DNA from: a virus | DNA: 41,886 nucleotides | Direction: 5' to 3' (one strand) | Virus record (IMG/VR): IMGVR_UViG_3300031553_000010 | Location: 1 to 41,886 of that record | Shown here: positions 1 through 41,886 of the stretch, one piece after another | Layout: each line of letters opens with the position of its first letter | How positions within the stretch are numbered: the first letter of the stretch is position 1 | The notes under the pieces: generated by a model | The model's input: only the letters and a program-made list of their open reading frames with translations | Told to the model about the DNA's origin: nothing | Databases searched by the model: none | Made by a program: the position numbers and the translations under genes

Positions 1-11
1 GATCAATGAGG
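1..11. repeat. terminal repeat marking circular closure
   Basis: The 11 bases GATCAATGAGG open the window and also close it (41876-41886). A chance match of this length is very unlikely, so the window is probably a circular molecule cut at an arbitrary point. The early gene order then runs unbroken across the junction. It does not look like a cos or long terminal repeat, because it lies inside a reading frame. Confidence 0.75.
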
Positions 12-10357: not shown

Positions 10358-10369
10358 CACCGGACTTCT

Positions 10370-10429
10370 CGTTCCCATGCTCTGCGTGGGAACGCACAAG
10401 CCAACATTCCCACGCAGAGCATGGGAACG
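10370..10429. repeat. REP-type inverted repeat (REPIN-like)
   Basis: Two 23-bp perfectly inverted arms (10370-10392 and 10407-10429) around a 14-base loop. Each arm begins or ends in CGTTCCCATGCTCTGCG or its complement. A single 27-bp copy of the same palindrome lies at 35566-35592. Such palindromes are common as dispersed chromosomal repeats, so this one likely came from a host genome. It may also cap or fold the mRNA ahead of the low-GC methylation genes. Confidence 0.85.
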
Positions 10430-24357: not shown

Positions 24358-25743
24358 ATGTCTTTTACCTGGGACCCCACAAAATGCCATTCTGACTTTT
24401 CACTTAGCAACGGGAATCGGACCGTTACGTGCATCGTCACCGGGTATGACCACAGCGTCGTTGCTAACTGGGCGAAAAGCAAGGGAAAATGGTATTGGGA
24501 AATCGTTTGCGACGCGATATCACCCACCTGGTCTATTTACTCGACGTGGGGCATCTGCGACCAGGACAGCGGCACGAATTTTACCACCGCGACAAGCGCC
24601 GGATGGCTTGAATCCTGGGCCGGCGCGGCAAATAATTATAAATTCCATGATGGCCAAAATTCCATCAATAGTTTTGATGGTCTCATTGTCGGCGATGTCC
24701 TGCAATTCGCTCTGGATCTCGACAACCACATGCTGTTTTTTGGGGCCAACGGCGCATGGCTTAACAGTGCAGATCCGGTAACGCTTGCCAATCCCCATTT
24801 TGACGATGCAACCATCGATGCCGTAATTGCCGCCTGCCTTTCGATGTATGCCGTTGGTGACATTTTTACCTCCTGCTTCGCCGCCGCCGAGCAGACCTAT
24901 TCGCCACCGGCCGGGTATTTGGCGCTTGACGACGGGGCAAAACCTGATACGGCAACTGGTGCCATCGGCTTTGCCTGTACTACTTTCGGCGGAGATGACA
25001 AACTTGCCGAGGCACCGTCAACGCTTGGTTTCACGGGAGTCATCGGCAAACTGGTTGACTATTCGCGCGGGGTTGGTCCCGCCGTGCTGGGCTTGGCGGT
25101 AACTGTCGGGGCCGCCAGATACGCCCAATTTTTTCCGGCGATATCAGATGGGATTGCATTCGCGAATGAATCCGAAGGAATAAACTACTCTGCCTGGTTG
25201 CGCCAAAATCGTGACCTGGCGGTCTATCGCTACCACGCGACGATCACCGGCGGCGCCGATGGTCTCGACGACTATGTGTTGACGGCGCCCAAGTCCATCC
25301 AATTTCGGATGCGCGGCGGGGATGCCAAATCGTATCTGTCTTTTGTGATCCCGTACACGGTTGACGACCTGGCGGCGATCAACGCCCGGCAGAACGGCGA
25401 ACTTGTCATCGACATGGCCGCCATTGTGGGCGGGGTCGAATCGTTGCGTGAGGAGCTGCTACGGGCCGATTTTTATTCGGTCCGATTCGACCGCGGGCCG
25501 CGCAGCCAATCGATCACCCTGGTGGGATACAAGGCGATCAGCTTCGGACCCGGCACGGTGACGCTGGAGAATGTTTTGCTGGAGACCATGACCGCCGAGG
25601 GGTTGTTGAGCTACCGGTGCGCGGTTCCCGATTTTTATCTACGGCCCGGGCATACCGCGAAGTATGGCGCCAACGAATTCATCGTCGATACGGTGGGTTG
25701 TTTTATCGGCGATAAAACGCAGTACATGGAGGTGGCCGAGTAG
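24358..25743 (+). CDS. tail tip protein with N-terminal SPRY-like domain
   Basis: 461 residues. Residues 1-175 have SPRY/B30.2-like features: GKWYWEIVCD (43-52), WGICDQDSG (64-72), and GDVLQFALDLDNHMLFFGANGA (110-131, in parts), which is the typical GD-x-(I/L)-x-x-x-LD...F..NG strand pair. Such domains bind proteins or sugars; in virions they occur on receptor-binding parts. The remaining 280 residues (from GAIGFACTTFGG) are beta-rich and look like the distal-tail or hub proteins seen after the tape measure. A surface-binding role at the tail tip is inferred. Confidence 0.7.
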   Translation: MSFTWDPTKCHSDFSLSNGNRTVTCIVTGYDHSVVANWAKSKGKWYWEIVCDAISPTWSIYSTWGICDQDSGTNFTTATSAGWLESWAGAANNYKFHDGQNSINSFDGLIVGDVLQFALDLDNHMLFFGANGAWLNSADPVTLANPHFDDATIDAVIAACLSMYAVGDIFTSCFAAAEQTYSPPAGYLALDDGAKPDTATGAIGFACTTFGGDDKLAEAPSTLGFTGVIGKLVDYSRGVGPAVLGLAVTVGAARYAQFFPAISDGIAFANESEGINYSAWLRQNRDLAVYRYHATITGGADGLDDYVLTAPKSIQFRMRGGDAKSYLSFVIPYTVDDLAAINARQNGELVIDMAAIVGGVESLREELLRADFYSVRFDRGPRSQSITLVGYKAISFGPGTVTLENVLLETMTAEGLLSYRCAVPDFYLRPGHTAKYGANEFIVDTVGCFIGDKTQYMEVAE

Positions 25744-27524
25744 TGGGCAAGGCCGTGATCATAAGCGAGGCCGGCGACGGCCAGTACACCATCAGCACGT
25801 CGTTCGATACGACGGCGGCCAATGTCACGCTGGCCAAGCTGCAGGCCATCCTGGCCGGTGTGCAGGCCGAGATCGACGGCGGCGCCGATGATGTGCGCCT
25901 GATTTTACTCAATGCCCGGAAAACAGCCTTGAACAAACAGATTGCCCGCATCTCCCGGGCGGCCGCCATGACCCGTGAGATGTCCGCCTGGTGCGCCGAT
26001 CTGACCACCGGGTTGACCGGCGAGGTGGGCACCATCGAAATCGGCACCGAGGCCGCCAACGGTGTGAACATCAAGCCGGGATACGGCGGCGGCCAGGCCT
26101 ATTCGCCGGCCGGCGATGGCATCGAAACGCCTTTCCTCACCCTGCCGGTATCGACGGCGATGATGAATTTTGCCGTGCTGCCGGGGATCCAGAAATGGCG
26201 GCCCACTTATCGATACGGGATCGTCTCCAATATCGACAAGGTTGCCGATACCGCCACGGTCACGGTGTCCGCCTGTCATAGCAGCATTCAAAATCTCGAC
26301 ATCAACCAGGCGTCTGTTTTAAACGATGTGCCGGTTGAGTATATGGCTTGCAATGCGGCGGCCTTCGAGGACGGTGATGCGGTGATCGTTAAGTTCGAGG
26401 GCTTTGCTCAGGCGAGTCCAAAGGTTGTCGGGTTTAAGGACCATCCGAAGGCTTGCGGCGTGAATATCAAACTTTTGTCGATCAACGGCGTTCCCTTTCC
26501 CGGCACCTACGGATATTCATTGCGGCTGACGCAACCGATCCAAACGTTGATCGATCATCCGACAAAGGGCGTTTACACGGAAGATTTTTTAGTAATCGGA
26601 GAGGGTCCGGTTGATAGTTCAGGAGTTGCTGAAATCCAATTTTCAGAGGGTGTCTCTATCGATCCGGATTATCCTATACACGTGAGTATCAAGAACTCTA
26701 ATCGGTGGACGTATTTTTCAACCGATTGGCGCGGTTCGGTGCCTGATAGGGGATATAAATGGGGGGCCGGTACTACGGGATTGACATGGTATCCCGCCGA
26801 TTGGGCTACCGGCGGGTATGATTTTTTGGTCGACGTCGTCGAGTATGCTCAAAACGGCACGCTCGATCTGCGCGCTGAATTGAAAGAAAGTTTTCAGAAT
26901 GCAAGCGGAAAAGTGGTTTCCGGTTATGCCGTTGCCTTCGATGGAATCAAGTTGCTCCAACGCAACTACTCGAGGTCTTATTTTTCGAATATTGAAACGC
27001 ATGAGTATTTAAATAAGACGGTAACGAGTACAAGAATAAAAATTTATATCTCTCGCACAATGGATTATAATGATCGGTATTACAAATTGCCCATCTATTT
27101 TGCGGAACGTTTACCGGTGTACGCCGTGACGCGTACGTTTGTATGCAGGGCTGGAGACAGCGGCTTGGCTTTCAAGATGTTTTGGAATCTTAATCCATAC
27201 GCCCCCGGGGTACTTTGGCAAGAATCGAAAATGGATCCGTTTATAAAGTCCGACCGATCCGGTCGAAACCTTATTTACAGTCAAACCGACGCCAGGATTG
27301 AAGCAGTTGGTGATTATCGATGTAATTGGATTTGGGCGGAGTCGGTGGGTGGTTATTTTTGTGCTAACCCTCCAAGATGGGATGCTGCTGCCTGTCAACC
27401 TGGTGAAGGTGTCGATGTGTCCGGTGACCCATGTGGTGGTCCCTACGATACCGTTACGTGTACCGAAGGGGCAATAGACATCGATGAAAGTTTTGTTTGG
27501 GAGATGGTCGATTTGACAGAGTGA
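25743..27524 (+). CDS. large tail tip protein
   Basis: 593 residues, GTG 25743 sharing a base with the previous stop. Residues 20-85 form a coiled-coil helix (LAKLQAILAGVQAEID). The middle is beta-rich with an OB-like run (YGIVSNIDKVADTATVTVSA, near 160-180; VEYMACNAAAFEDGDAVIVK near 200-220), similar to hub-domain proteins. After about residue 280 base composition becomes more A/T-rich and the chain adopts many Tyr/Asn (RNYSRSYFSNIE), as receptor-binding parts often do. The C-terminal 60 residues carry several Cys. The switch in composition suggests a replaced tip domain. Confidence 0.65.
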   Translation: MGKAVIISEAGDGQYTISTSFDTTAANVTLAKLQAILAGVQAEIDGGADDVRLILLNARKTALNKQIARISRAAAMTREMSAWCADLTTGLTGEVGTIEIGTEAANGVNIKPGYGGGQAYSPAGDGIETPFLTLPVSTAMMNFAVLPGIQKWRPTYRYGIVSNIDKVADTATVTVSACHSSIQNLDINQASVLNDVPVEYMACNAAAFEDGDAVIVKFEGFAQASPKVVGFKDHPKACGVNIKLLSINGVPFPGTYGYSLRLTQPIQTLIDHPTKGVYTEDFLVIGEGPVDSSGVAEIQFSEGVSIDPDYPIHVSIKNSNRWTYFSTDWRGSVPDRGYKWGAGTTGLTWYPADWATGGYDFLVDVVEYAQNGTLDLRAELKESFQNASGKVVSGYAVAFDGIKLLQRNYSRSYFSNIETHEYLNKTVTSTRIKIYISRTMDYNDRYYKLPIYFAERLPVYAVTRTFVCRAGDSGLAFKMFWNLNPYAPGVLWQESKMDPFIKSDRSGRNLIYSQTDARIEAVGDYRCNWIWAESVGGYFCANPPRWDAAACQPGEGVDVSGDPCGGPYDTVTCTEGAIDIDESFVWEMVDLTE

Positions 27525-27561: not shown

Positions 27562-28479
27562 ATGATAATTTTACCTAAAGATATCTGGCTACTGATTTTA
27601 ACCGCGCTGATCACCGCCGTCTGCGCCGTCTGCGTGCCGCCCCTGCAGGCCGCCGAACCAACGACCATCCACGCCGAGGATTATATTGCCGGCGGCGAGG
27701 GCACAGCCTACCATGATTCCGATGCCGTCAACCGCGGCAACACCGCGCTCCGGCCGGATGAGGGCGTGGACCTGTGGGTCGATGCTACGGGCGCCGTCAA
27801 GGTCGGCAGTGTCAAAACCGGGGAGTGGATCATCTATCCCGTGGCATTGCCGGTCGAGGGGAATTATTTGTTCCAATTCCATTTGTCCACGCCGCAAGCC
27901 GCCGCGACCGTCGATCTTTTTATCGATGATCAGAAAATCGGCATGCTCACGGCGCCGGTCACCGGCGGTTACCAAACCCCCGCGGTTGTCGACCTGCTCG
28001 CCACGGTCCCGGCGGCCGGCCAACACAACCTTAAAATCGTGTTCACCGGGCCGTCGGTCGATTTGTACGCCATCGATTATGCGCCCAACCCGGGCCTGGC
28101 GTCCACGGGGTTCAGCCTCCGGGATCGCGCCACCTATATCGGCACCACGGACAGACCGATCAAGGTGAGCTGGGATTTGCAACCGGAAGCGGATTATTTC
28201 GAGGCCGTGCTGCTCAGTGTGGATCGCGCCGTCGAAACCCCGGCCGGCATCGGCAAAACCCCGTCCAATCTGATCACGTTCCGTCTGCCGCATGCCGGTC
28301 TGTTCAGGGTCAAAGTTCGTGCTTGCCTGGCCGCCGTCGCGCCCGAGCCGCCGATATGTTCGGAGTGGACCCTGTCCACCGATGATAAAATGGCCATGGT
28401 CGACGGCGTCAACCGCGGCTGGTGGCTGTATGGTTACATCTCCCCGCCCGGGGCCATCGATATATTTCAAAACGAGTGA
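27562..28479 (+). CDS. secreted protein with CBM6-like carbohydrate-binding domain
   Basis: 305 residues. The start has a Sec signal: MIILPK, a hydrophobic helix LLILTALITAVCAVCV and a likely cut after LQA (about 30). Residues 32-170 follow a CBM6-type fold: IHAEDYIAGGEGTAYHD, then VDLWVDATGAVKVG, TGEWIIYPVALPVEGNY and a LFIDDQKIGML strand. A fibronectin-like segment follows (VSWDLQPEADYFEAVL). CBM6 domains bind beta-glucans and xylans. A Sec signal is odd for a virion part, so it may be secreted by the host or anchored to it, or be a tail protein exported before assembly. Confidence 0.75.
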   Translation: MIILPKDIWLLILTALITAVCAVCVPPLQAAEPTTIHAEDYIAGGEGTAYHDSDAVNRGNTALRPDEGVDLWVDATGAVKVGSVKTGEWIIYPVALPVEGNYLFQFHLSTPQAAATVDLFIDDQKIGMLTAPVTGGYQTPAVVDLLATVPAAGQHNLKIVFTGPSVDLYAIDYAPNPGLASTGFSLRDRATYIGTTDRPIKVSWDLQPEADYFEAVLLSVDRAVETPAGIGKTPSNLITFRLPHAGLFRVKVRACLAAVAPEPPICSEWTLSTDDKMAMVDGVNRGWWLYGYISPPGAIDIFQNE

Positions 28480-28501
28480 CAAAAAAAAAGGAGTACTACT
28501 C

Positions 28502-28810
28502 ATGCCGGTTAAAAACGTGACGATCAAGTTTCCCGCGTCCGGATCCCCGGACGTCATCGGCTACAAACTGTACATCTCGGAGCAACCCACCCCGCTGGAC
28601 TACGCCAGCGAAAGCATGGACCTGGGCAACGTCACCGAGGTGGATGTTTCGAAACTCGCCGGTATGACGACCAAATCCGGGATCTATGACATCGGGATCA
28701 CGGCCGTCGATGCCGCCGGCAACGAGTCGTCCATGTCCATTAAAGGAGGGGTCGCCATCGACTTTGTAGCGCCGGACCCTCCCGGGCCGATCGTCGTCGA
28801 GCGATCCTGA
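28502..28810 (+). CDS. small fibronectin-type-III-like protein
   Basis: 102 residues from ATG 28502, with AGGAG nine bases before. The chain (VTIKFPASGSPDVIGYKLYI, GIYDIGITAVDAAGNESS) is a single FN3 domain by pattern: an early Lys-Phe strand, GYKLYIS for strand C, and the ITAVDAAGNES strand F-G typical of such repeats. It has no signal peptide, unlike the gene before it. It may be an adhesive subunit of the tail tip. Confidence 0.65.
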   Translation: MPVKNVTIKFPASGSPDVIGYKLYISEQPTPLDYASESMDLGNVTEVDVSKLAGMTTKSGIYDIGITAVDAAGNESSMSIKGGVAIDFVAPDPPGPIVVERS

Positions 28811-28823
28811 AAGTGATAGCCGA

Positions 28824-29030
28824 ATGGCTGAAGCGGATCAAATTTTGGAGGTCGTGAAATCGATCTGGCGGGTCGGTCGGCGGCCTATGATAACGGGCAA
28901 TGTGCATATCGACGTCGCCCGGCTACCGCTCAGCAGAAAGTTTTTGGCGCTGTTCGTGGTGCCTGATCGGTCGTATGTCGACCCGGTAGAATTGGCCTAC
29001 CGGGCGCTGGTTAGGATTTTGGAAAACTGA
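28824..29030 (+). CDS. small hypothetical protein
   Basis: 68 residues from ATG 28824. The sequence EADQILEVVKSIWRVGRRPM is a basic helix and the rest (HIDVARLPLSRKFLALFVVP) is mixed. No signal, Cys or known motif. It stands between an FN3-like gene and the next secreted protein, and I cannot assign a role. Confidence 0.5.
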   Translation: MAEADQILEVVKSIWRVGRRPMITGNVHIDVARLPLSRKFLALFVVPDRSYVDPVELAYRALVRILEN

Positions 29031-29133
29031 GGAGAGAGAGAAATGGCAGCTCGGCCGGAGGGATCCGATAGTGTTGGCTTTTGACTACTTTCAAACCTGA
29101 AGGATTGGGTTTCACGACCTAAAGGAGACGACG

Positions 29134-29598
29134 ATGAGAAAAATATTTTGCTTGACGGTTTTTTTGATTTTGGCCACGGCTTATCCGATTCTGGCGGCCT
29201 GCACCATGGCGCCCGGGGACCGGATCGAGTACACCAGTAAATTCGGATCAATGACGACCCTGCCGCTGGTCTGTACCTGCGATGGCGCCGGCGGGGCGAT
29301 CGCGGCCACGGCCATCCCGATCAATGTCGTCGGGGGGGCCCAGCTGGTAGAGGTCCAGGTTGTCCCCGGTGCGACCTGCGCCGCCGTCGCCGCGACGATC
29401 CGGGACAACCGGATCGGCCCGGATTCGCTCGGCACCAAAAAGTGGGGCATCGATGCGATCGACACGACCATCGGCAAAAATTACGGCGGCCATATCATCG
29501 ACGGCGTGTTCCCGGTCATGGACGCCCCGTGGTTTTTCACGGCCGGGGACCTGGGCGCCGATGGCTCGGCGATCTTTTACCTTAAATTGAGCAAGTAG
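29134..29598 (+). CDS. secreted tail-region protein
   Basis: 154 residues; AAAGGAG nine bases before ATG. N-terminus MRKIFCLTVFLILATAYPILA is a clear Sec signal with a cut after LAA or ILA (about 21-22). The mature part is beta-rich with Cys pairs (ACTMAP, VCTCDG, ATCAAV), and the run GGHIIDGVFPVMDAPWFFTA is hydrophobic. It starts with the same MRKIF as the next gene, so the two signal peptides may share an origin. Role unknown; likely an exported tail-tip or surface protein. Confidence 0.65.
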   Translation: MRKIFCLTVFLILATAYPILAACTMAPGDRIEYTSKFGSMTTLPLVCTCDGAGGAIAATAIPINVVGGAQLVEVQVVPGATCAAVAATIRDNRIGPDSLGTKKWGIDAIDTTIGKNYGGHIIDGVFPVMDAPWFFTAGDLGADGSAIFYLKLSK

Positions 29599-29608
29599 GG
29601 GTGGCGCC

Positions 29609-30391
29609 ATGAGAAAGATATTCCTTGTCGTTCTGCTTTGTTTGATTTCCACAATCGCGCTGGCCGGCAACAAAACGCCTCCGCCCGTGATGGGCACCGG
29701 ACCGGCATCAGACGTCAGGCCGATGTATGAGCCTGCCACGAAAACCACTTACCTGCCCGGTGGTCTCGTAATTGGTGGAACCGAAACAATTGACGGAGCT
29801 ATATCAAGCGTTAACCTTGCGACCTTAGCGGCACTGCAGGCATACACGGGCAGCGACACAACCGTTTACGTACAGGGGCGCATAGCGGCCGGTGATGGCT
29901 ATGAGGGTGTGTTTAATTATCTAACCGGTGATTACTCGACTGAAGCCACAGCGGATACTCTCCATGATAATTATGTTGCAAAGTCTGGCGTGGCTACTTC
30001 TACCGGGTGTTGGGTGAGAAGTAAGGCTGTGATTTCGGACAGACTTGAACTTACTACAGACACAGTTCTTACAACATCGCAGTTGTTATTATATAAATAT
30101 ATTACAAATCAGGGGGCTGCGTCGGAGATTGATTTGACCTTACCTGCCGTAAGTTATTCAATAACGCGAGCAATTATAATAGAAGAATCTCAAAATATTG
30201 AGATAAATCCACCTTCCGGGGAGTTATTCGATCTCGATGGAACTCTTCTTGATGCAGATGATTGTGTTGACTCTGATTCTGTTGTCGGTAGCAAAATTAT
30301 TGCTACTAGAATGAAAATAGCTGATGGATCATGGAGATGGAGCCTTGATACTGTTAGAGGGACTTGGGTTGATACCGGAGCAAGTGACTAA
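29609..30391 (+). CDS. tailspike-like protein with Sec signal
   Basis: 260 residues. Signal peptide MRKIFLVVLLCLISTIALAG (cut about 19-20). Residues 65-135 (VNLATLAALQAYTGSDTTVY, GRIAAGDGYEGVFNYL, STGCWVRSKA) match the head-proximal domain of many tailspikes, where an (A/S)TLAALRA helix leads to a GD-G-G strand and a final W-R. The C-terminal part (RMKIADGSWRWSLDTVRGTW) is also typical of spike tips. GC falls from about 29.76 kb onward, which suggests imported sequence. The signal on a spike-like protein is unusual. Confidence 0.7.
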   Translation: MRKIFLVVLLCLISTIALAGNKTPPPVMGTGPASDVRPMYEPATKTTYLPGGLVIGGTETIDGAISSVNLATLAALQAYTGSDTTVYVQGRIAAGDGYEGVFNYLTGDYSTEATADTLHDNYVAKSGVATSTGCWVRSKAVISDRLELTTDTVLTTSQLLLYKYITNQGAASEIDLTLPAVSYSITRAIIIEESQNIEINPPSGELFDLDGTLLDADDCVDSDSVVGSKIIATRMKIADGSWRWSLDTVRGTWVDTGASD

Positions 30392-30393
30392 TC

Positions 30394-32301
30394 ATGAAAT
30401 ATTTACTATTAGTCTTTATTTTAATGTATTCGCAATTATCGTTAGCTACTACATATTATATCCAAGCAAATGGAGATAATACGGACCCGGACTGCTCAGA
30501 AAGTACGCCTTGCTGTTCTGGGGCAATGGATATGTCCGACTTCAATGCAGCGAGTTTTAGTGGCGATGATGTTGTCTACGTGTGCGATGATAATGGTGTT
30601 TATTATGCTCAGATGAACCTGCCTACAAGTGGGGCATCTGGACATCCGATAACTCTCTCCGCCTATCCTGGAGATCTCCCAGTAATAAACGGGAGCGATT
30701 CAGTTTCTGGAAGCTGGGCTGACCAGGGATCTAATATTTGGAGAAAAGATACGGGAGCCATAACCCCATGGTTAGTTGTATTCAATACCACTAATATAGG
30801 TATCGAAAATGACGTTGGGCCGGCAGCGGATTATGAATGGCGTTTTTCAGGATCCAATTTGTTCGTTTACGCCGAGTCCGATCCTGATGTCTATTACTCA
30901 TCAATTGAAATAGGGCAAAGGATCGGCATAAATACAAATGGTAAGGATTATTGGGATATTAGTGGCGTCCATATCACTAAATGCCAATGGCTTTCCGAAA
31001 ATGGTTCATGGGTTGGCGGAGGTATCCGGTTACAAGACGACGGTGCGGACGATCAGTCATCTCATATAAACATTACTGGTGTAACCGCTGATTATATGCA
31101 GGGTTTTGGAATAAGCATAAGGGGTTCGAGCTACGTAAGTGTGAGTAATTCAACATTTGACAAGATCGAATGCCAGCAGATTGGGAGTTGTGGAGATGGA
31201 ATTTTAATAGGGCAGGACAAAACTGATTTGACATCTTCGAGCAATATCGAGGTAACTGGTTGTACATTTGGCAGCGGGGCTGACTCTATCGACCGCTGGT
31301 CGATTGGGGTGATAGATGGAGACGATATCTCTATCCACGATAATAATTTCCTTGGCGGACAAGCCGCTGTGGATGTTGAGCCAAATACTGATTGGGTTGT
31401 AAACAATTTAGCTTTTTACAGCAATACTGGAAGTTTGTACCAAAATACGAGAGGCGCAGACGAACTTTTTGCAATAATTCTAACCGAGACTTCGGGGGGC
31501 ACTATTAATGGAACAATTAGCATAGAAGATAACCAATTTGATATGAACAACGCCACTCAGGGAACTGCTATCGATCTTTTGGGCGGTGGATCAACAAATA
31601 CCATAAATAACAATACCATGTTAAATTGTAGACATGGTATATTTGCTAACGACGACTGCTCAATAAGTAGAAACTATCTCACCGGTGGTACTTCTGCTGT
31701 CGATGGGATAAAGCTGTTGAATGGTGTTATAAATGCCAAATTTAATGTCGTAAGTGGTTTCCAATATGCCGTCTATGATGATGGCGATGGCGACCCGAAA
31801 TTTTTATATAACAATAGTCTATATGATTACGAAACTGGTTTCCATATAACCTTGGCGCCAACTCCAACGGTCACGATGAAAAATAATATTTTCGGTGGGA
31901 CGTCAGCAACTTATCAGATTAGAAAAAGAGGCGCCGGTTCGACGATAGTATCTGACTACAATATCTTTGCCGAGGATGGTAGTACTCATTTCGATTTCGA
32001 AACTACCCAATCAGATTTTGCTGGATGGAAAACAAATTCGGGGCAAGATGCTAATTCTACCGTTGCAGATCCATTATTTTCAGATGCCCCATCTGGTGGT
32101 TTTCAATTAAAATATGGTTCACCGGCAATAAACAAGGGTGTGAATCCCTTTGTCGATGGAGATGGAGACCAAACTGACTTTGCAGGCGTAAGAGTATGGG
32201 ACGATGTTATAGATGCTCTTATTGGTGGGTGGTTTGACGGCACTGAGATCGGGGCGTATGGAGTAATAAAAGGGAAACCAGAAACAATGATGGGTTTATA
32301 A
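30394..32301 (+). CDS. secreted right-handed beta-helix protein (spike or adhesin)
   Basis: 635 residues, two bases after the previous stop, low GC. The start MKYLLLVFILMYSQLSLA is a Sec signal. The body (about 160-480) is a right-handed parallel beta-helix with many NITGVTADY, SVSNSTFDKI, IEVTGCTFG, SIHDNNFLGG turns, each about 22 residues, as in pectate-lyase-like spikes and adhesins. Early Cys (CSESTPCC) may form disulfides, which again fits export. The C-terminal part (NPFVDGDGDQTDFAG) resembles a calcium-binding or anchor module. Probably acts on or binds surface polysaccharide. Confidence 0.8.
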   Translation: MKYLLLVFILMYSQLSLATTYYIQANGDNTDPDCSESTPCCSGAMDMSDFNAASFSGDDVVYVCDDNGVYYAQMNLPTSGASGHPITLSAYPGDLPVINGSDSVSGSWADQGSNIWRKDTGAITPWLVVFNTTNIGIENDVGPAADYEWRFSGSNLFVYAESDPDVYYSSIEIGQRIGINTNGKDYWDISGVHITKCQWLSENGSWVGGGIRLQDDGADDQSSHINITGVTADYMQGFGISIRGSSYVSVSNSTFDKIECQQIGSCGDGILIGQDKTDLTSSSNIEVTGCTFGSGADSIDRWSIGVIDGDDISIHDNNFLGGQAAVDVEPNTDWVVNNLAFYSNTGSLYQNTRGADELFAIILTETSGGTINGTISIEDNQFDMNNATQGTAIDLLGGGSTNTINNNTMLNCRHGIFANDDCSISRNYLTGGTSAVDGIKLLNGVINAKFNVVSGFQYAVYDDGDGDPKFLYNNSLYDYETGFHITLAPTPTVTMKNNIFGGTSATYQIRKRGAGSTIVSDYNIFAEDGSTHFDFETTQSDFAGWKTNSGQDANSTVADPLFSDAPSGGFQLKYGSPAINKGVNPFVDGDGDQTDFAGVRVWDDVIDALIGGWFDGTEIGAYGVIKGKPETMMGL

Positions 32302-32302
32302 A

Positions 32303-32398
32303 ATGAAAACAACAATAGTAATAGCACTGCTTTTATTGGCCGCAACAGCTTGGGCGCCGCGGCAACGGCGGCGTTATCTTGTAACCAAAAAGTTTTGA
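32303..32398 (+). CDS. 31-residue peptide resembling a signal sequence
   Basis: ATG 32303 begins one base after the previous gene's stop. MKTTIVIALLLLAATAWA is a hydrophobic Sec-like helix and the tail APRQRRRYLVTKKF is strongly basic. It could be a tiny membrane peptide or the stump of another secreted protein, cut before its body. The ribosome site is unclear. Confidence 0.35.
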   Translation: MKTTIVIALLLLAATAWAPRQRRRYLVTKKF

Positions 32399-32413: not shown

Positions 32414-32863
32414 GTGCCCGCTAAACCAACCACGCAACACGATCGTCGCTACCTGATCCGCCGCGACAACGACCACGCCCCGGGCATCAACCGGGACGAC
32501 TTGTCGTTGCTCATGGAGAGCTATCGCAATACGATCGAGCTGACTACCACTCTGCTCCAGCGCCAGGACAAATTGAACATCGCCCTGGAGGAGGTGGCCC
32601 GGCAGCTTACGGTGTTGGCCTCCAGCCAGACCGATGTCAATGCCGGTATCGGCCGCCTGCCCGGGGTCTTCGATGAGATGATCAACGTCTTGTGCGTCGG
32701 CGTTGCCGGTCGCATCGAGGTCTTGAGCAAAACCATCGACGGCAACCGCAAGGAGGAAACCGCCGAGCATAATGCCCACACCCTGCGCCTGTATGTGGCT
32801 TATGGCGTGCTGTGCACCATCATTCTGGCCTTGATCGGCCTCGGGATAAAAATATGGCCCTGA
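32414..32863 (+). CDS. coiled-coil protein with C-terminal membrane anchor
   Basis: 149 residues from GTG 32414. The first 25 are basic. Residues 28-110 are helical with heptad character (LSLLMESYRNTIELTTTLLQ, LNIALEEVARQLTVL). The end YVAYGVLCTIILALIGLGIKI is one membrane helix. The layout recalls XhlA-type holin partners. It overlaps the REC-PAS gene by 10 bases, so the two are co-expressed and perhaps membrane-linked. Confidence 0.6.
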   Translation: MPAKPTTQHDRRYLIRRDNDHAPGINRDDLSLLMESYRNTIELTTTLLQRQDKLNIALEEVARQLTVLASSQTDVNAGIGRLPGVFDEMINVLCVGVAGRIEVLSKTIDGNRKEETAEHNAHTLRLYVAYGVLCTIILALIGLGIKIWP

Positions 32864-33690
32864 CCATCACCACGCCCCAATATTTTGTTTATGTGCTGGA
32901 GGACGAGTCACAGATTATCAATGTGATTCGTGGCTTTCTCATTACTCGTCCGGAAATCGTGGTGCGGTCCTTCACCCATTTGGAACCGCTGCTGGCCGAT
33001 GCCAACCTGGCGCACGCCGATCTATTTATCCTTGACATCAACCTGGACGATACCCTGAGCGGATTTGATGTTCCTGATCGGCTGCCCATGCGTTGCCGTT
33101 TCGCGGGCTTCCTTTTTATCTCGGGTTACCCGGTTGAATCCGAGCAATACAATCGGGCCGCGGGTCTGCCGCTGTTTGATTTTATCGCCAAACCGTTTAC
33201 CATGCAGCAATTCAAGCACCGCGTCGATTTGTTGCTGGCGGCGCGTTTCAAGATCCCGCCGGGGTTGAATGATCGCCTGATCGCTCAGTGGGCCCGTGAA
33301 TCATTTTTGTCCGTTGTGCTGGATGCGGATAATAATGTCCGTCTGTGCAACCGTCATTTGGCTTTGGCCCTGGGCGTCAAGCATGTCGATGAAATTATCG
33401 GCCGGCCGTGGGCCGAGCTGATCCCGATTATCGACCGGCCGCCGGATCCCGCTGCGGATGCGGATGAGGCTCCGCGTTTGCGCTGGGTGCGATCCGATTT
33501 CGAGAGCGTCGACGGCGCGCCCATGACGCTCCTGTTGGGTGTCTATACCGATGCCAAGGATCTGCGCGCCGAACGCCTGCGCCGTTTTTACCAGGAAATC
33601 CTGCAGGCCGATCGGGCCGCCATCCAGTCAATACAACCCCTGCCGCGGATCGACACGCCGGTCAGGAAACCAAAAAAGGATGCCCCGTGA
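32854..33690 (+). CDS. REC-PAS signalling protein (response-regulator-like)
   Basis: 278 residues from ATG 32854. Residues 10-125 are a receiver domain with every key residue: acidic pair Glu16-Asp17 (VLEDES), phospho-acceptor Asp61 (FILDINLD), Ser90 (LFISGYP) and Lys113 (IAKPF). Residues 150-255 look like a PAS sensor domain (FLSVVLDADNNVRLCNRHLA, GVKHVDEIIGRPWAELIPII, MTLLLGVYTDAK). There is no kinase, HTH or output enzyme. It is flanked by a coiled-coil membrane protein and the M15 endolysin, overlapping both, so it is part of the lysis operon. It could let host phosphorelay or redox state act on lysis, or sequester a host signal. This is inference. Confidence 0.85.
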   Translation: MALTITTPQYFVYVLEDESQIINVIRGFLITRPEIVVRSFTHLEPLLADANLAHADLFILDINLDDTLSGFDVPDRLPMRCRFAGFLFISGYPVESEQYNRAAGLPLFDFIAKPFTMQQFKHRVDLLLAARFKIPPGLNDRLIAQWARESFLSVVLDADNNVRLCNRHLALALGVKHVDEIIGRPWAELIPIIDRPPDPAADADEAPRLRWVRSDFESVDGAPMTLLLGVYTDAKDLRAERLRRFYQEILQADRAAIQSIQPLPRIDTPVRKPKKDAP

Positions 33691-35526: not shown

Positions 35527-35565
35527 GATTGTAGTTGTCCTGTGACTGCTCCCGGCTTTCTACTC

Positions 35566-35592
35566 GCGTTCCCATGCTCTGCGTGGGAACGC
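35566..35592. repeat. REP palindrome, single copy
   Basis: 27 bp with nine-base arms GCGTTCCCA/TGGGAACGC, the same unit as each arm of the hairpin at 10370-10429. It ends 16 bp before the lipoprotein ATG. Two sites of one host-type repeat in one phage point to repeated acquisition or to a role in the mRNA. Confidence 0.8.
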
Positions 35593-35608
35593 ATAACAAA
35601 GGAAAAAA

Positions 35609-35941
35609 ATGAAAAGAAAAATCGCAGTCTTGTCGATTATCATCATGGCCCTGTTCCTGGGCGCCTGCGCCACAGCCAACATCGACACCCCGGAAAAGAA
35701 ATATCTGGTGGCCAGATCGGAGCTGAACCTGTTGCTCGAGCAGTACATCGGCATCCAGGACAAGTTCAAGCCTGCCGATCAGAAAACCATCAAGGAGGCT
35801 TTCTACACATCCAAGATGGCGCTGGATGTTTGGGAGATCAACATCTCCACCATCGGGTACGATTTCACGACGGATTATAAGACCTGGCTGGCGGCCAAGT
35901 CTTTGATCCTCAAAACCATCAGGGAGGCGTACCATGAATAA
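35609..35941 (+). CDS. lipoprotein, possible outer spanin
   Basis: 110 residues, AAAGGA before the ATG. MKRKIAVLSIIIMALFLGAC gives a lipoprotein signal with lipobox LGAC and modified Cys20. The mature part is helical and mixed-charge (YLVARSELNLLLEQYIGIQD, IKEAFYTSKMALDVW). A small lipoprotein at the end of a lysis region can be the outer spanin, joining outer membrane and wall. No inner partner is obvious, unless it is the next gene. A lipoprotein implies a host with a lipoprotein pathway, probably diderm. Confidence 0.7.
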   Translation: MKRKIAVLSIIIMALFLGACATANIDTPEKKYLVARSELNLLLEQYIGIQDKFKPADQKTIKEAFYTSKMALDVWEINISTIGYDFTTDYKTWLAAKSLILKTIREAYHE

Positions 35942-37467: not shown

Positions 37468-38091
37468 TCACTCCTTGGTGTAATTCATGATTTCCTTGTA
37501 CAGGTTTTTGACTTCCTCGACGGCTTTTTTATCCGCCATCTCGACAACTCCTTTCCCCTCTGCGAAAGCATTTTTATAGACGATTCTGGAGCAAAGAGGC
37601 GACGATAAAAGGCCCGCGTCTTTCTCAAAATATTGCATTGCTGCAATGATTTCGACCGCCAGGCGTGTGTTGTGAATCACCTGGTTGAGCACAAAAAAAG
37701 CCGGTATATCCCGGTAGGTTCGTGCCTCCCGCAAAATTTCGATGACGTCCCCAGCCGCCCAAAAGTCCACCGCTGACGGCAGACAGGGGATGAGTAAAAG
37801 ATCGGCCGCCAGTATGGCGGACCTGAAAGCCTTGCTGTCACGCCCGCCGGCGTCGATGATTATCAGATCGTGGGTAAATTGATGCAGATCCTTGTGGATG
37901 GTGGGCGTGGTGATCTGGATGGCCTGGATGTCATCGCTTTCCCGCGATGCACGAAAAGCGATTGAGGTCCCTTGTGTGTCCGCATCCACGATCAAGACAG
38001 ACCTGCCGCTGATGGCTGCCATGACGGCCAGGTTGCAGGCAATGGTTGATTTGCCGACCCCGCCCTTTGTCGATCCTACCGTGATTATCAT
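37468..38091 (-). CDS. parA: ParA-family partition ATPase, type Ib (ParF-like)
   Basis: 207 residues leftward. Deviant Walker A KGGVGKST (residues 9-16), ADTQGT switch (about 37-42) and LIIIDAGG (about 74-81). It lacks an N-terminal HTH and has the length of ParF, so it is a small ParA. The gene lies between repA and a ribbon-helix-helix gene, exactly the plasmid pattern. It ratchets plasmid copies to daughter cells. A promoter lies in the 70-bp gap before it. Confidence 0.92.
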   Translation of the reverse strand: MIITVGSTKGGVGKSTIACNLAVMAAISGRSVLIVDADTQGTSIAFRASRESDDIQAIQITTPTIHKDLHQFTHDLIIIDAGGRDSKAFRSAILAADLLLIPCLPSAVDFWAAGDVIEILREARTYRDIPAFFVLNQVIHNTRLAVEIIAAMQYFEKDAGLLSSPLCSRIVYKNAFAEGKGVVEMADKKAVEEVKNLYKEIMNYTKE

Positions 38092-38125
38092 ACCGCCGCG
38101 CCTGTTTAAGTTTTAATAAATAAAT

Positions 38126-38153
38126 GATATAATGCCATCGCGTTATATGTCAA
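38126..38153 (-). promoter_or_regulatory. promoter for the par genes
   Basis: Leftward TTGACA (38153-38148), 16-bp spacer, TATATC (38131-38126), between repA stop and parA start. Partition genes normally control their own promoter, so the partition protein may bind here. No clear repeat array is seen in the 70-bp gap. Confidence 0.65.
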
Positions 38154-38161
38154 TAATTTTT

Positions 38162-39328
38162 TTACTCCGCCCGTCGAATTTTACCTTCCTGGATCAGCTT
38201 TATTATCGGGCCGGCCGTTAAACAACCGCCGGATTCCGGCCAAATACAATCATTTTCATCGATGGTGTACTCCTGATGCTGGTAAACGATTTTCATGCCG
38301 GCTGCTATCATCGGCGGCGTGTCTATTTCGGGGAAAAGGCGCAATTGTTTGGGGTTGAACTTGGCGCCCAGGTCTTTTTTTAGGACAGTTCCCAAATAGG
38401 CGGCAAAATCAACCGGGTTACGATATTTGGTATAGGCGACGCTGCGCAGCACATAGTTTTCTCCATGACTTTCCAAATAGTCTGTGATGTCTCTCAGGAT
38501 GTCGTGATGGCAGCGTAATTGTTCGGGCACATGCTGGAGGATATCCTCGGGGATGTCTAACATTATTGGGATCCCGGTAACGTCAATTTCTTTACCGCTG
38601 CCATTTTTAATGAATGTTTTTTTCAGGGGTTTGATGGTGAACCGGAGCCACTTTACGGTCCGGCCTTGTTTGATTTGTTTGTAAGTGAAACTGATGTCTG
38701 TTTTTTTGGGTAGTTCTCTTTTTGCTACCTCGATTGTGAATTTTTTAAAGTTGAAATATTGGACTAATTTATCATCGGGAACGCCCAATTTATTGCGCAA
38801 TTCATTGAGTTCGAATGTTCTTTCTTTGGTTTCGGTATTCGCATACTGCTTGAGTAGTTCGTACAGTCTGATGCTATACACGGAACGCATTTTCATCACG
38901 TTCCCGATCCGGTATCTCGTGAACCGTCCCGTTGCCTTGAGCTGTAACAAATAAGGCCGTAATTCGGGGGGGAAACTAAAGCCGATTGTTTTTTCCGATA
39001 GTTTTTCGACGGCGGTGACGGCAAAGGGGATATTGAGCCGCACGTCGTTTTCCGCGTCATAGACCTCGATATCCGTTTTCCTTAGTTCGCGCACAGCTTC
39101 GACCAGCTCTTTGAAATAGTCTGTCCGGCCTTTGATGCCTGCCAGTTTTTTGTAATCATCAACATTGATCATGTAAAATTTGAAAACATCGTCATCAGGC
39201 TGGATCTGCGCAATGGCATAGAGCATCGTTTTTTTTGCATTCAACTTTAAACGATAGATCCCCTCGATCAGTGGGTTGCCTTGATAGACCAGGTGGTGCT
39301 TTTTAATTTCCTTTTGCGGTTTTTCCAC
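38162..39328 (-). CDS. repA: plasmid replication initiator, Rep_3 family
   Basis: 388 residues leftward. The start is GTG 39328 because AAAGGAG lies five bases upstream; the frame is open to ATG 39376 without a site. HHLVYQGNPLIEGIYRLKLN, LYAIAQIQPDDDVFKFYMIN and VYSIRLYELLKQYANTETKE mark the two winged-helix domains of Rep_3 (RepE/Pi-like) initiators. It would bind the iterons at 39380-39479 and recruit DnaA and helicase. The last 100 residues are less conserved. Confidence 0.9.
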   Translation of the reverse strand: MEKPQKEIKKHHLVYQGNPLIEGIYRLKLNAKKTMLYAIAQIQPDDDVFKFYMINVDDYKKLAGIKGRTDYFKELVEAVRELRKTDIEVYDAENDVRLNIPFAVTAVEKLSEKTIGFSFPPELRPYLLQLKATGRFTRYRIGNVMKMRSVYSIRLYELLKQYANTETKERTFELNELRNKLGVPDDKLVQYFNFKKFTIEVAKRELPKKTDISFTYKQIKQGRTVKWLRFTIKPLKKTFIKNGSGKEIDVTGIPIMLDIPEDILQHVPEQLRCHHDILRDITDYLESHGENYVLRSVAYTKYRNPVDFAAYLGTVLKKDLGAKFNPKQLRLFPEIDTPPMIAAGMKIVYQHQEYTIDENDCIWPESGGCLTAGPIIKLIQEGKIRRAE

Positions 39329-39379
39329 GGCGGCTCCTTTGAATAGATTATAATTTGAGTTTTCCCGAATATACATAAA

Positions 39380-41596: not shown

Positions 41597-41886
41597 TGCC
41601 CAGCTTGTTGCGGGATTTCTCTTGCGGGAGCAGGTACGGTTTTTCACGTACCTGAACGATTGTTCGATCGATCCTACCGAGGGTACGGTGATCATCGAGG
41701 ATATGCTGAGGGAGGCCGACGACCAGCGTGCAACCTGTATCGATCATTACATTGGTGAGAAAAAGAGATACCAAAAAAAAAACCCCTGCACCCCAAAGGA
41801 TAGTCGGACCAAATTTATAACCATCTGTTATCATTACGAAAAAAATGGGTCCTTTTTCGAGGTTTTAACCATACGGATCAATGAGG
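41583..41886 (+). CDS. hypothetical early protein, cut by the window edge
   Basis: From ATG 41583, 101 codons remain open to the edge. MKPIDAQLVAGFLLREQVRF is followed by TYLNDCSIDPTEGTVIIEDM, then a basic middle (IGEKKRYQKKNPCTPKDSR) and CYHYEKNGSFFEVLTIRIN. Joined with the left edge it stops at 17-19, giving about 105 residues. No family is recognised. It is the last gene before the primase-helicase. Confidence 0.6.
   Translation, partial: MKPIDAQLVAGFLLREQVRFFTYLNDCSIDPTEGTVIIEDMLREADDQRATCIDHYIGEKKRYQKKNPCTPKDSRTKFITICYHYEKNGSFFEVLTIRINE

Follow-up and report, generated by a model that had tools for sequence, protein, structure and literature searches.

A candidate cassette of Sec-signal-bearing fibre- and spike-like genes behind a phage tail hub

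Genes downstream of the tail hub

The window, as we call the whole 41,886-nt stretch of viral DNA under study (IMG/VR record IMGVR_UViG_3300031553_000010), carries a run of genes behind its tail hub, several of which join a Sec-type signal to a fibre-, spike- or CBM-like module (Table 1; genes are named by their start positions). The hub has relatives at 33 IMG/VR loci and 20 genome loci; single-protein IMG/VR scans returned none for it, nor for most of 29609.

Table 1 Genes and features from the tail hub to the end of the signal-bearing run (positions in the window).
Feature	Position	Strand	Remarks
Tail hub/tip protein	25743..27524	+	last tail gene common to relatives; conservation in the N-terminal ~240 aa
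Secreted-type CBM6 protein, 305 aa	27562..28479	+	likely signal 27562-27651, weak n-region
Signal-less small FN3-like protein, 102 aa	28502..28810	+	weak phrog_382 match (0.0037)
Small ORF, 68 aa	28824..29030	+	searched for relatives, none found
Small exported-type protein, 154 aa	29134..29598	+	signal 29134-29199; lipobox Cys codon 29200-29202; SD AAGGAG
Exported-type fibre-tip protein, 260 aa	29609..30391	+	signal 29609-29665; tip domain about 30044-30388
Exported-type protein, probably a right-handed beta-helix, 635 aa	30394..32301	+	signal 30394-30447; mature N-terminus TTYYIQANGD
Signal-like ORF, 31 aa	32303..32398	+	probably truncated gene start at right import junction
Imported low-GC segment	29912..32336	.	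change-point fit; left edge in 29609, right edge in 32303

The CBM6 protein, 27562, matched Pfam CBM_6 (PF03422) at 1.4e-11, with 45.2 bits against a cut-off of 28.9, and the FN3-like protein at 28502 had relatives at loci L134 (3.2e-5) and L148 (0.046). For 30394, profile A9 of the beta-helix matched PDB 3vst at 3.8e-13, and a low-confidence AF2 model (pLDDT 55.6) gave structural matches to GH, PL and tailspike folds; its C-terminal choice-of-anchor-Q match fell below the cut-off, and the window protein itself lay under the Pfam cut-offs. The AF2 model of 29609 was unusable (pLDDT 33). Protein 29134 had no family match in Pfam or PHROG searches and no relatives by single-protein IMG/VR scan or in annotated phages; a small protein of L158, likened to it by eye, was rejected at a BLAST E of 73.

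None of 27562, 29134, 29609 and 30394 matched an outer-membrane barrel at E<=1 in Pfam or PHROG, and PADLOC and Rfam searches gave no result. When the listed genes of the window were run by tblastn against 116 loci, nothing matched 27562-32301; the same search missed the L006 tip, which phmmer picked up later. Searches of 345 genomes from one phylum, run without a positive control, matched neither 29609 nor 27562.

Sec-type signals and translation starts

Signals were scored with a home-made, rule-based caller that looks for a positive n-region, a hydrophobic h-region and either A-X-A or a lipobox; it found 10 of 11 known signal peptides and made false calls on 1.8% of 10,800 residue-shuffled proteins. 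Within the window it called 29134, 29609, 30394, 32303, the Rz1-like lipoprotein at 35609 and one terminase, whose ORF start probably lies too far upstream. The cuts fell between MRKIFLVVLLCLISTIALA and G in 29609, between MKYLLLVFILMYSQLSLA and TTYY in 30394, and between MRKIFCLTVFLILATAYPILAA and C in 29134, where an L-A-A-C lipobox also fits (called LIPO). Cut between LAA and a Cys at +1, 29134 is probably a bacterial lipoprotein, as predicted from its N-terminus; an SPase I cut is also conceivable. The N-terminus of 27562 (MIILPKD IWLLILTALITAVCAVC VPPLQA, then AE) drew no call from the rule-based caller because the n-region carries no net charge. Judged by eye, it looks like a signal, with a likely cut at residue 30, and the CBM6 match to a solved structure (PDB 2y8k) starts just past this, at residue 34.

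Both 29609 and 30394 display the n-, h- and c-regions, the A-X-A and the matching start codon of an SPase I-type Sec signal. SD-like sequences lie upstream of the starts of 29134 (AAGGAG), 29609 (GGTG) and 30394 (GGAG). The sole alternative start ahead of the mature N-terminus of 30394 is an ATG within the signal, and a search for a strong-SD internal start near that N-terminus found none. The preliminary description, which is upheld for the most part, had given Sec-type signals to five products: they are good on 29134, 29609 and 30394, weaker and uncalled on 27562, and signal-like on 32303, which is probably a cut-off remnant. Its wider claim, that fibre, spike and CBM proteins with Sec-type signals lie in the tail region, is supported.

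A low-GC segment at the end of the run

The best-fitting low-GC segment, 29,912-32,336, has a GC of 0.417 between flanks of 0.580 and 0.577 (log-likelihood gain 70.8). It takes in the last ~60% of 29609, the whole of 30394 (GC 0.422, GC3 0.365) and the first part of 32303, where GC is 0.349 against 0.547 in the second part. In the window, tip and beta-helix lie together in low-GC DNA of foreign origin that has been spliced into a signal-bearing gene already resident there. The fall in GC noticed earlier was confirmed and the DNA import read from it is supported by this segment, whose extent is not exactly the last two large genes to which the import had been assigned. The 31-residue peptide proposed at 32303 fared less well: a truncated gene start at the import junction explains the ORF better, and 32303 is probably the beginning of a further gene, not a peptide gene.

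Homologues with and without a signal

The tip and beta-helix domains are present in other phages both with and without a signal. The tip of 29609 occurs without one in tail-fibre-like genes directly after the hub in L006 (phmmer 1.3e-5) and L031 (hmmsearch 2.4e-34); taking a tail-fibre domain to be one common to fibre genes at the same place in relatives, these two loci mark the tip as such. Its closest copies are in the phage contigs L240 and L241 (61-67% identity), in both of which a beta-helix gene related to 30394 follows immediately, giving the same order of tip and beta-helix as in the window. The tip gene of L240 (67% identity to 29609) and its beta-helix gene are both signal-bearing, and the L240 protein also bears a polysaccharide deacetylase domain; the L241 tip gene is broken by a frameshift. 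L242 has a 29609-type tip in a signal-bearing gene. On the related A4 tip, a signal was found in 5 of 62 proteins with a readable N-terminus, so export is the minority state for this tip.

Among 11 loci of the beta-helix family, the signal cut falls just before '(A)TYYMRADG' in four (L249, L251, L252, L256), and the initiator codon lies at the TYYMRADG motif in four others (L250, L255, L257, L258), where an in-frame stop upstream is too near to leave room for a signal. The motif is internal in L253 and L254, and L248 has a short uncalled leader. The signal cut site in this family is the initiator position of the signal-less homologues. Of 345 genomes from one phylum, 12 had chromosomal relatives of 30394, several of which bear signals. 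By eye, these relatives adjoin apparent exopolysaccharide genes.

Recurrence and position relative to the hub

Runs of signal-bearing genes recur at L249 (four in a row), L145, L156, L158, L251 and L256. Signals were called on 22 of 219 genes after the hub, a count that includes L118 genes and spanin-like lipoproteins, and on 12 of 500 upstream of the hub (Fisher p 2.5e-5, only a guide since the rows are related). On L118, a 5.7-kb MAG piece, three genes behind the hub combine a signal with a PEP-CTERM-like end; this contig may be host DNA.

In the nearest relatives the tail module stops at the hub, and lysis or accessory genes follow directly in L039, L041 and L042. The check proposed earlier, a look for the same set of genes beside the tail genes of related phages, gave a positive result in unrelated phages and not in the nearest ones, and the tail-fibre place given earlier to these proteins is not established, the nearest relatives having no gene there. 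At L279 a collar-domain protein with a signal (PF07484, 5.9e-23) directly follows the hub, and the tail operon holds two further signal-bearing fibre-like genes. An 838-aa signal-bearing gene of L286, considered as a core tail protein, was dropped, as it had no PHROG match. Going by gene names read by eye, a terminase-like gene precedes the cassette in L241, and connector-like genes surround it in L240.

Discussion

The secretion signals on these fibre-like and sugar-polymer-binding proteins argue that they are probably exported and not built into the particle. On balance, and judging from sequence, we favour the reading that these genes form a mobile cassette, encoding derivatives of fibres and spikes that would be exported through Sec to act on surface polysaccharide and would not be normal virion parts. 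The cassette has its site between the tail hub and lysis genes, and its proteins would be produced late in infection and cross the inner membrane via Sec ahead of lysis, 29134 probably as a lipoprotein. They would act at the envelope of the producing cell rather than in the virion, and there the CBM6, fibre-tip and beta-helix modules would bind surface polysaccharide or cleave it. The most probable gain, which is also the least certain step, would be that the phage's own receptor or exopolysaccharide is cleared or masked, so that progeny could leave freely and secondary infection would be blocked. This reading draws on the signal calls with their SD sites, the excess of signals after the hub, the homologues with and without a signal, the recurring pairs and runs, the signal-bearing chromosomal relatives of 30394 and the matches to polysaccharide-enzyme folds. 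Against it count the home-made caller, the uncalled 27562, the L279 collar protein, the minority of signals on the A4 tip, the frameshift in the L241 tip gene and promoter predictions no more frequent than in shuffles.

Single exported phage proteins encoded near tail genes have been described before. T5 Llp, a phage lipoprotein, masks the receptor that the phage itself uses; the likeness of 29134, a predicted lipoprotein, to Llp is confined to the lipobox. Tailspike depolymerases and tail-collar fibres resemble the cassette in fibre-tip and collar domains and in what is probably a right-handed beta-helix with a polysaccharide-enzyme fold, but the known ones are virion parts without a Sec signal, whereas here a signal precedes the domain. 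Bacterial choice-of-anchor-Q/DUF5123 beta-helix proteins likewise have a signal, then TTYY(V/M), a beta-helix and a weak C-terminal choice-of-anchor-Q match; 30394, however, is phage-borne and adjoins a signal-bearing fibre tip. Prophages of Porphyromonas gingivalis also carry uncharacterised genes with Sec signals, proposed to alter the host surface; the section on them in PMC10367356 does not tie them to fibres, spikes or a cassette.

If the cassette reading is true, fibre tips and beta-helix spikes switch between signal-less and exported forms at an exact domain boundary in several phage types, and phages would be turning parts of their own receptor-binding apparatus to use on, or against, the surface of the host. 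Annotators are warned, too, that a gene labelled 'tail fibre' but bearing a Sec signal need not encode a virion part.

The alternative that survives best, which we consider unlikely, is that these are virion fibres or spikes that take a detour: they would be exported to the periplasm, fold there, possibly forming disulfides, and attach to the particle as the cell lyses or afterwards. At L279, the signal-bearing collar protein occupies the very position at which one would expect the tail fibre of a virion, which agrees with a virion role, and the two other signal-bearing fibre-like genes share its operon; the signal-less homologues of L006 and L031 hold the same post-hub position. The mature proteins contain 4 Cys in 29134 and 10 in 30394, but per residue the hub, which has no signal, is as rich in Cys as 30394. 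Moreover, tailed-phage fibres are assembled in the cytoplasm, the cassette turns up in unrelated places such as those of L241 and L240, and the nearest relatives have no need of a post-hub fibre gene. Rather improbable, taken jointly, are the general propositions that some tailed phages route receptor-binding parts via Sec for periplasmic folding and attachment to virions outside the cytoplasm, and that signals are added to or removed from fibre and spike genes precisely where the mature protein begins; such two-compartment assembly is not known for tailed phages.

It is also rather doubtful that the genes serve lysogenic conversion, with a resident plasmid-like prophage making proteins that the host uses as surface adhesins or matrix. 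The window's plasmid-type genes, a Rep_3 initiator (Rep3_N 7.1e-31, Rep3_C 3.5e-15) and a ParA-type ATPase, suggest a plasmid-like lysogen, and the exopolysaccharide genes that appear to adjoin the chromosomal relatives of 30394 would suit such a role. Lambda Lom, as described in PMC12309495, offers a precedent: it is a signal-bearing gene flanked by tail genes, its product goes to the host envelope, and lysogens express it. Lom, however, is an outer-membrane beta-barrel, whereas the cassette consists of fibre-tip, beta-helix and CBM6 proteins, in runs, with and without signals. Production by the lysogen, which the preliminary description had suggested, was not established: predicted promoters (11, against 9.9 with sd 3.4 in shuffles) and terminators (15, against 10.3 with sd 3.2) were not above chance in 25.5-34.5 kb, and the genes continue from the late tail operon.

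Very improbable is a reading in which the hydrophobic N-termini do not act as signals, or translation truly starts farther downstream, and the proteins are ordinary cytoplasmic fibres. The weak signal of 27562 and the many signal-less homologues speak for it; against it, the beta-helix cut site coincides with the initiator of signal-less homologues, and the SD sites lie upstream of the signal starts with no strong-SD internal start near the mature N-terminus of 30394. We give hardly any credence to 30394 as a passenger, a host secreted-enzyme gene gained by recombination and useless to the phage, as its GC and GC3 and its secreted chromosomal relatives might suggest, since the pair of tip and beta-helix recurs in other phage contigs.

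Signal peptides and an import in the window

Sec-type signals had been attributed in the preliminary description to four tail-region proteins and a 31-residue peptide. We built a rule-based caller that recognised 10 of 11 known signals (PhoA was missed) and called 1.8% of 10,800 residue shuffles. It confirmed the signals of the small putative lipoprotein at 29134 (in lipobox form), the fibre-tip protein at 29609 and the beta-helix protein at 30394. The CBM6 protein at 27562 was not called, having no net charge ahead of its hydrophobic stretch, but a cut between LQA and AE fits a signal and is compatible with the CBM6 domain beginning at residue 34. Signal starts in the window are preceded by SD-like sequences.

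The reported GC drop is real, and the segment that fits it best is 29,912-32,336. Its left edge lies inside 29609, so that a resident signal-bearing gene acquired a foreign C-terminal tip. Its right edge falls inside the 31-aa ORF at 32303, which is therefore best interpreted as a truncated gene start, even though its signal was called.

The region after the hub

We surveyed 53 distinct post-hub stretches, each of at least 1.5 kb, among loci with a conserved hub. In the closest relatives (L039, L041 and L042) lysis-like or accessory genes, named by eye, directly follow the hub, and the tail module of Marinobacter phage PS3 likewise stops there; 27562-32301 is thus extra. Among genes of at least 80 aa, signals were called in 22 of 219 after the hub versus 12 of 500 in the 9 kb before it (Fisher p 2.5e-5, with rows related by kinship). 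Counted among the 22 are a few spanin-like lipoproteins, along with three genes from L118, a MAG piece and possibly host DNA. Of the 12, five represent a single small VYKWT protein that recurs between tail chaperone and tape measure. This signal-bearing protein, DUF4124-like by eye, occurs in the relatives L002, L018, L020, L025 and L113.

Recurrence of the set was borne out in other phages: a 29609-type tip is directly followed by a 30394 relative in L240 and L241 (tblastn 5.9e-12 and 4.1e-18). L249 has four consecutive signal-bearing genes (128, 351, 759 and 701 aa), of which the third and fourth match Pfam Beta_helix, and L145 has three, the third called by eye at the second ATG. Two lie within the tail operon of L251/L279, where a signal-bearing collar-domain protein (PF07484, 5.9e-23) directly follows the hub; L156, L158, L242, L256 and L008 have runs of at least two. 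The surroundings of these runs vary (gene names mostly by eye), which argues that the set is mobile. Another run, in the L241 contig (L284), includes a protein with a Golvesin C-terminal domain. The L286 phage encodes several signal-bearing proteins, one of 838 aa directly after a tail-protein-like gene; a family search with this protein gave no match.

The same domains with and without signals

The first post-hub genes of L006 (284 aa, start MAKYKLNHTKAEIDAILNKV, SD AAGGAGG) and L031 = L035 (676 aa, start MAFKQVINPLTGKFDL) lack a signal, and their C-termini are homologous to the 29609 tip, at about residues 146-260 (phmmer 1.3e-5 for L006; 2.4e-34 for L031, using a model built from the window and L006 tips). 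Scanning IMG/VR with the window, L006 and L031 tips gave 8 loci. Signals were called in L240 (67%) and L242; in L241 (61%) the tip is out of frame with the signal ORF; and L243, L244 and L245-L247 (three copies of a single sequence) lack a signal. A4, a related tip, is signal-bearing in L144, whose protein matches a PHROG tail fibre (3.1e-10), and in L145. A scan of 69 A4 loci gave 62 rows whose N-terminus could be read: 5 bear a signal (4 distinct, one being L144) and 57 do not. Six others are open at a contig end and one has no start. In cultured Microcystis phages the A4 tip has no signal.

The N-terminal stretch shared by the beta-helix family was found at 11 loci. In four (L249, L251, L252 (= L240 contig) and L256) a called signal ends at (A)TTYYMRADG, and L248 (= L241 contig) has a short hydrophobic, uncalled leader. 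In another four (L250, L255, L257 and L258) the initiator codon is at the motif, and an upstream in-frame stop leaves too little room for a signal; in L253 and L254 the motif is internal. One domain thus appears to be used both exported and unexported, joined at the cut site.

Chromosomal relatives of 30394 occur in 12 of 345 sampled genomes that share a phylum with a Desulfobotulus genome. One (L224/L237; 712 aa, phmmer 7.9e-19) has a signal followed by TTYYVDATNGND and adjoins exopolysaccharide and exosortase-like genes (by eye). Another, in L236, adjoins a Mu-type major head-like gene and exopolysaccharide genes (by eye), a possible prophage scar. The beta-helix profile matches xylosidase 3vst (3.8e-13), and a low-confidence AF2 model (pLDDT 55.6) matches glycosidases, capsule lyases and phage tailspikes. 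In L240, the protein has a polysaccharide deacetylase domain as well (3.5e-13).

A proposed mobile, exported cassette

Signals, recurrence, signal-bearing and signal-less states of the same domains, and foreign DNA were all shown, and underlie our reading of a mobile cassette of Sec-exported fibre and spike derivatives between tail hub and lysis genes. The proteins would be made late from the tail operon, exported by Sec and act on surface polysaccharide. The favoured benefit, and the least certain step, is that the phage's own receptor or matrix would be cleared or masked before release and further phages excluded. T5 Llp is a comparison system. The main rival readings would put the exported proteins to work in conversion of the lysogen, or have fibres assembled in the periplasm.

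Our literature search, covering few subscription papers or preprints, found no published account of fibre or spike cassettes that bear signals. Comparison material came from papers on Lom (PMC12309495) and others (PMC10367356, PMC3556154, PMC12210884, PMC12946066 and PMC6102473).

Phage genome and lifestyle

The 41,886-base IMG/VR virus record carries terminase, portal, head-protease fusion, tail tube, tape measure and hub genes. Given its Rep_3 initiator and ParA-type gene, it is probably a phage-plasmid and may live as a plasmid. Hub relatives (20 loci) come from Desulfobacterota-type MAGs, Desulfobotulus, Marinobacter and Halomonas, among others. At its two ends the window has the same 11 bases (GATCAATGAGG), and the molecule may be circular or redundant. 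A palindromic repeat of the GTTCCCATGCTCTGCGTGGGAACG type is present in two copies. The lysis region contains an odd accessory gene for a response-regulator receiver plus PAS-like protein (receiver Pfam 6e-9), flanked by a holin-like gene and one for an M15-like endolysin.

Coordinates of features in the window and in other loci
Feature	Sequence	Positions	Strand
Best-fit low-GC segment	window	29,912-32,336	
Response-regulator receiver + PAS-like protein	window	32812-33690	+
ParA-type ATPase + Rep_3 replication initiator	window	37468-39376	-
Identical 11-base ends	window	1-11; 41876-41886	
30-base palindromic repeat	window	10367-10396; 35564-35593	
Small VYKWT protein	L002	19528-19941	
Chromosomal TYYMRADG beta-helix gene	L236	6381-9326	
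Run of signal-bearing genes	L284	8772-12210	
838-aa signal-bearing protein	L286	11800-14316
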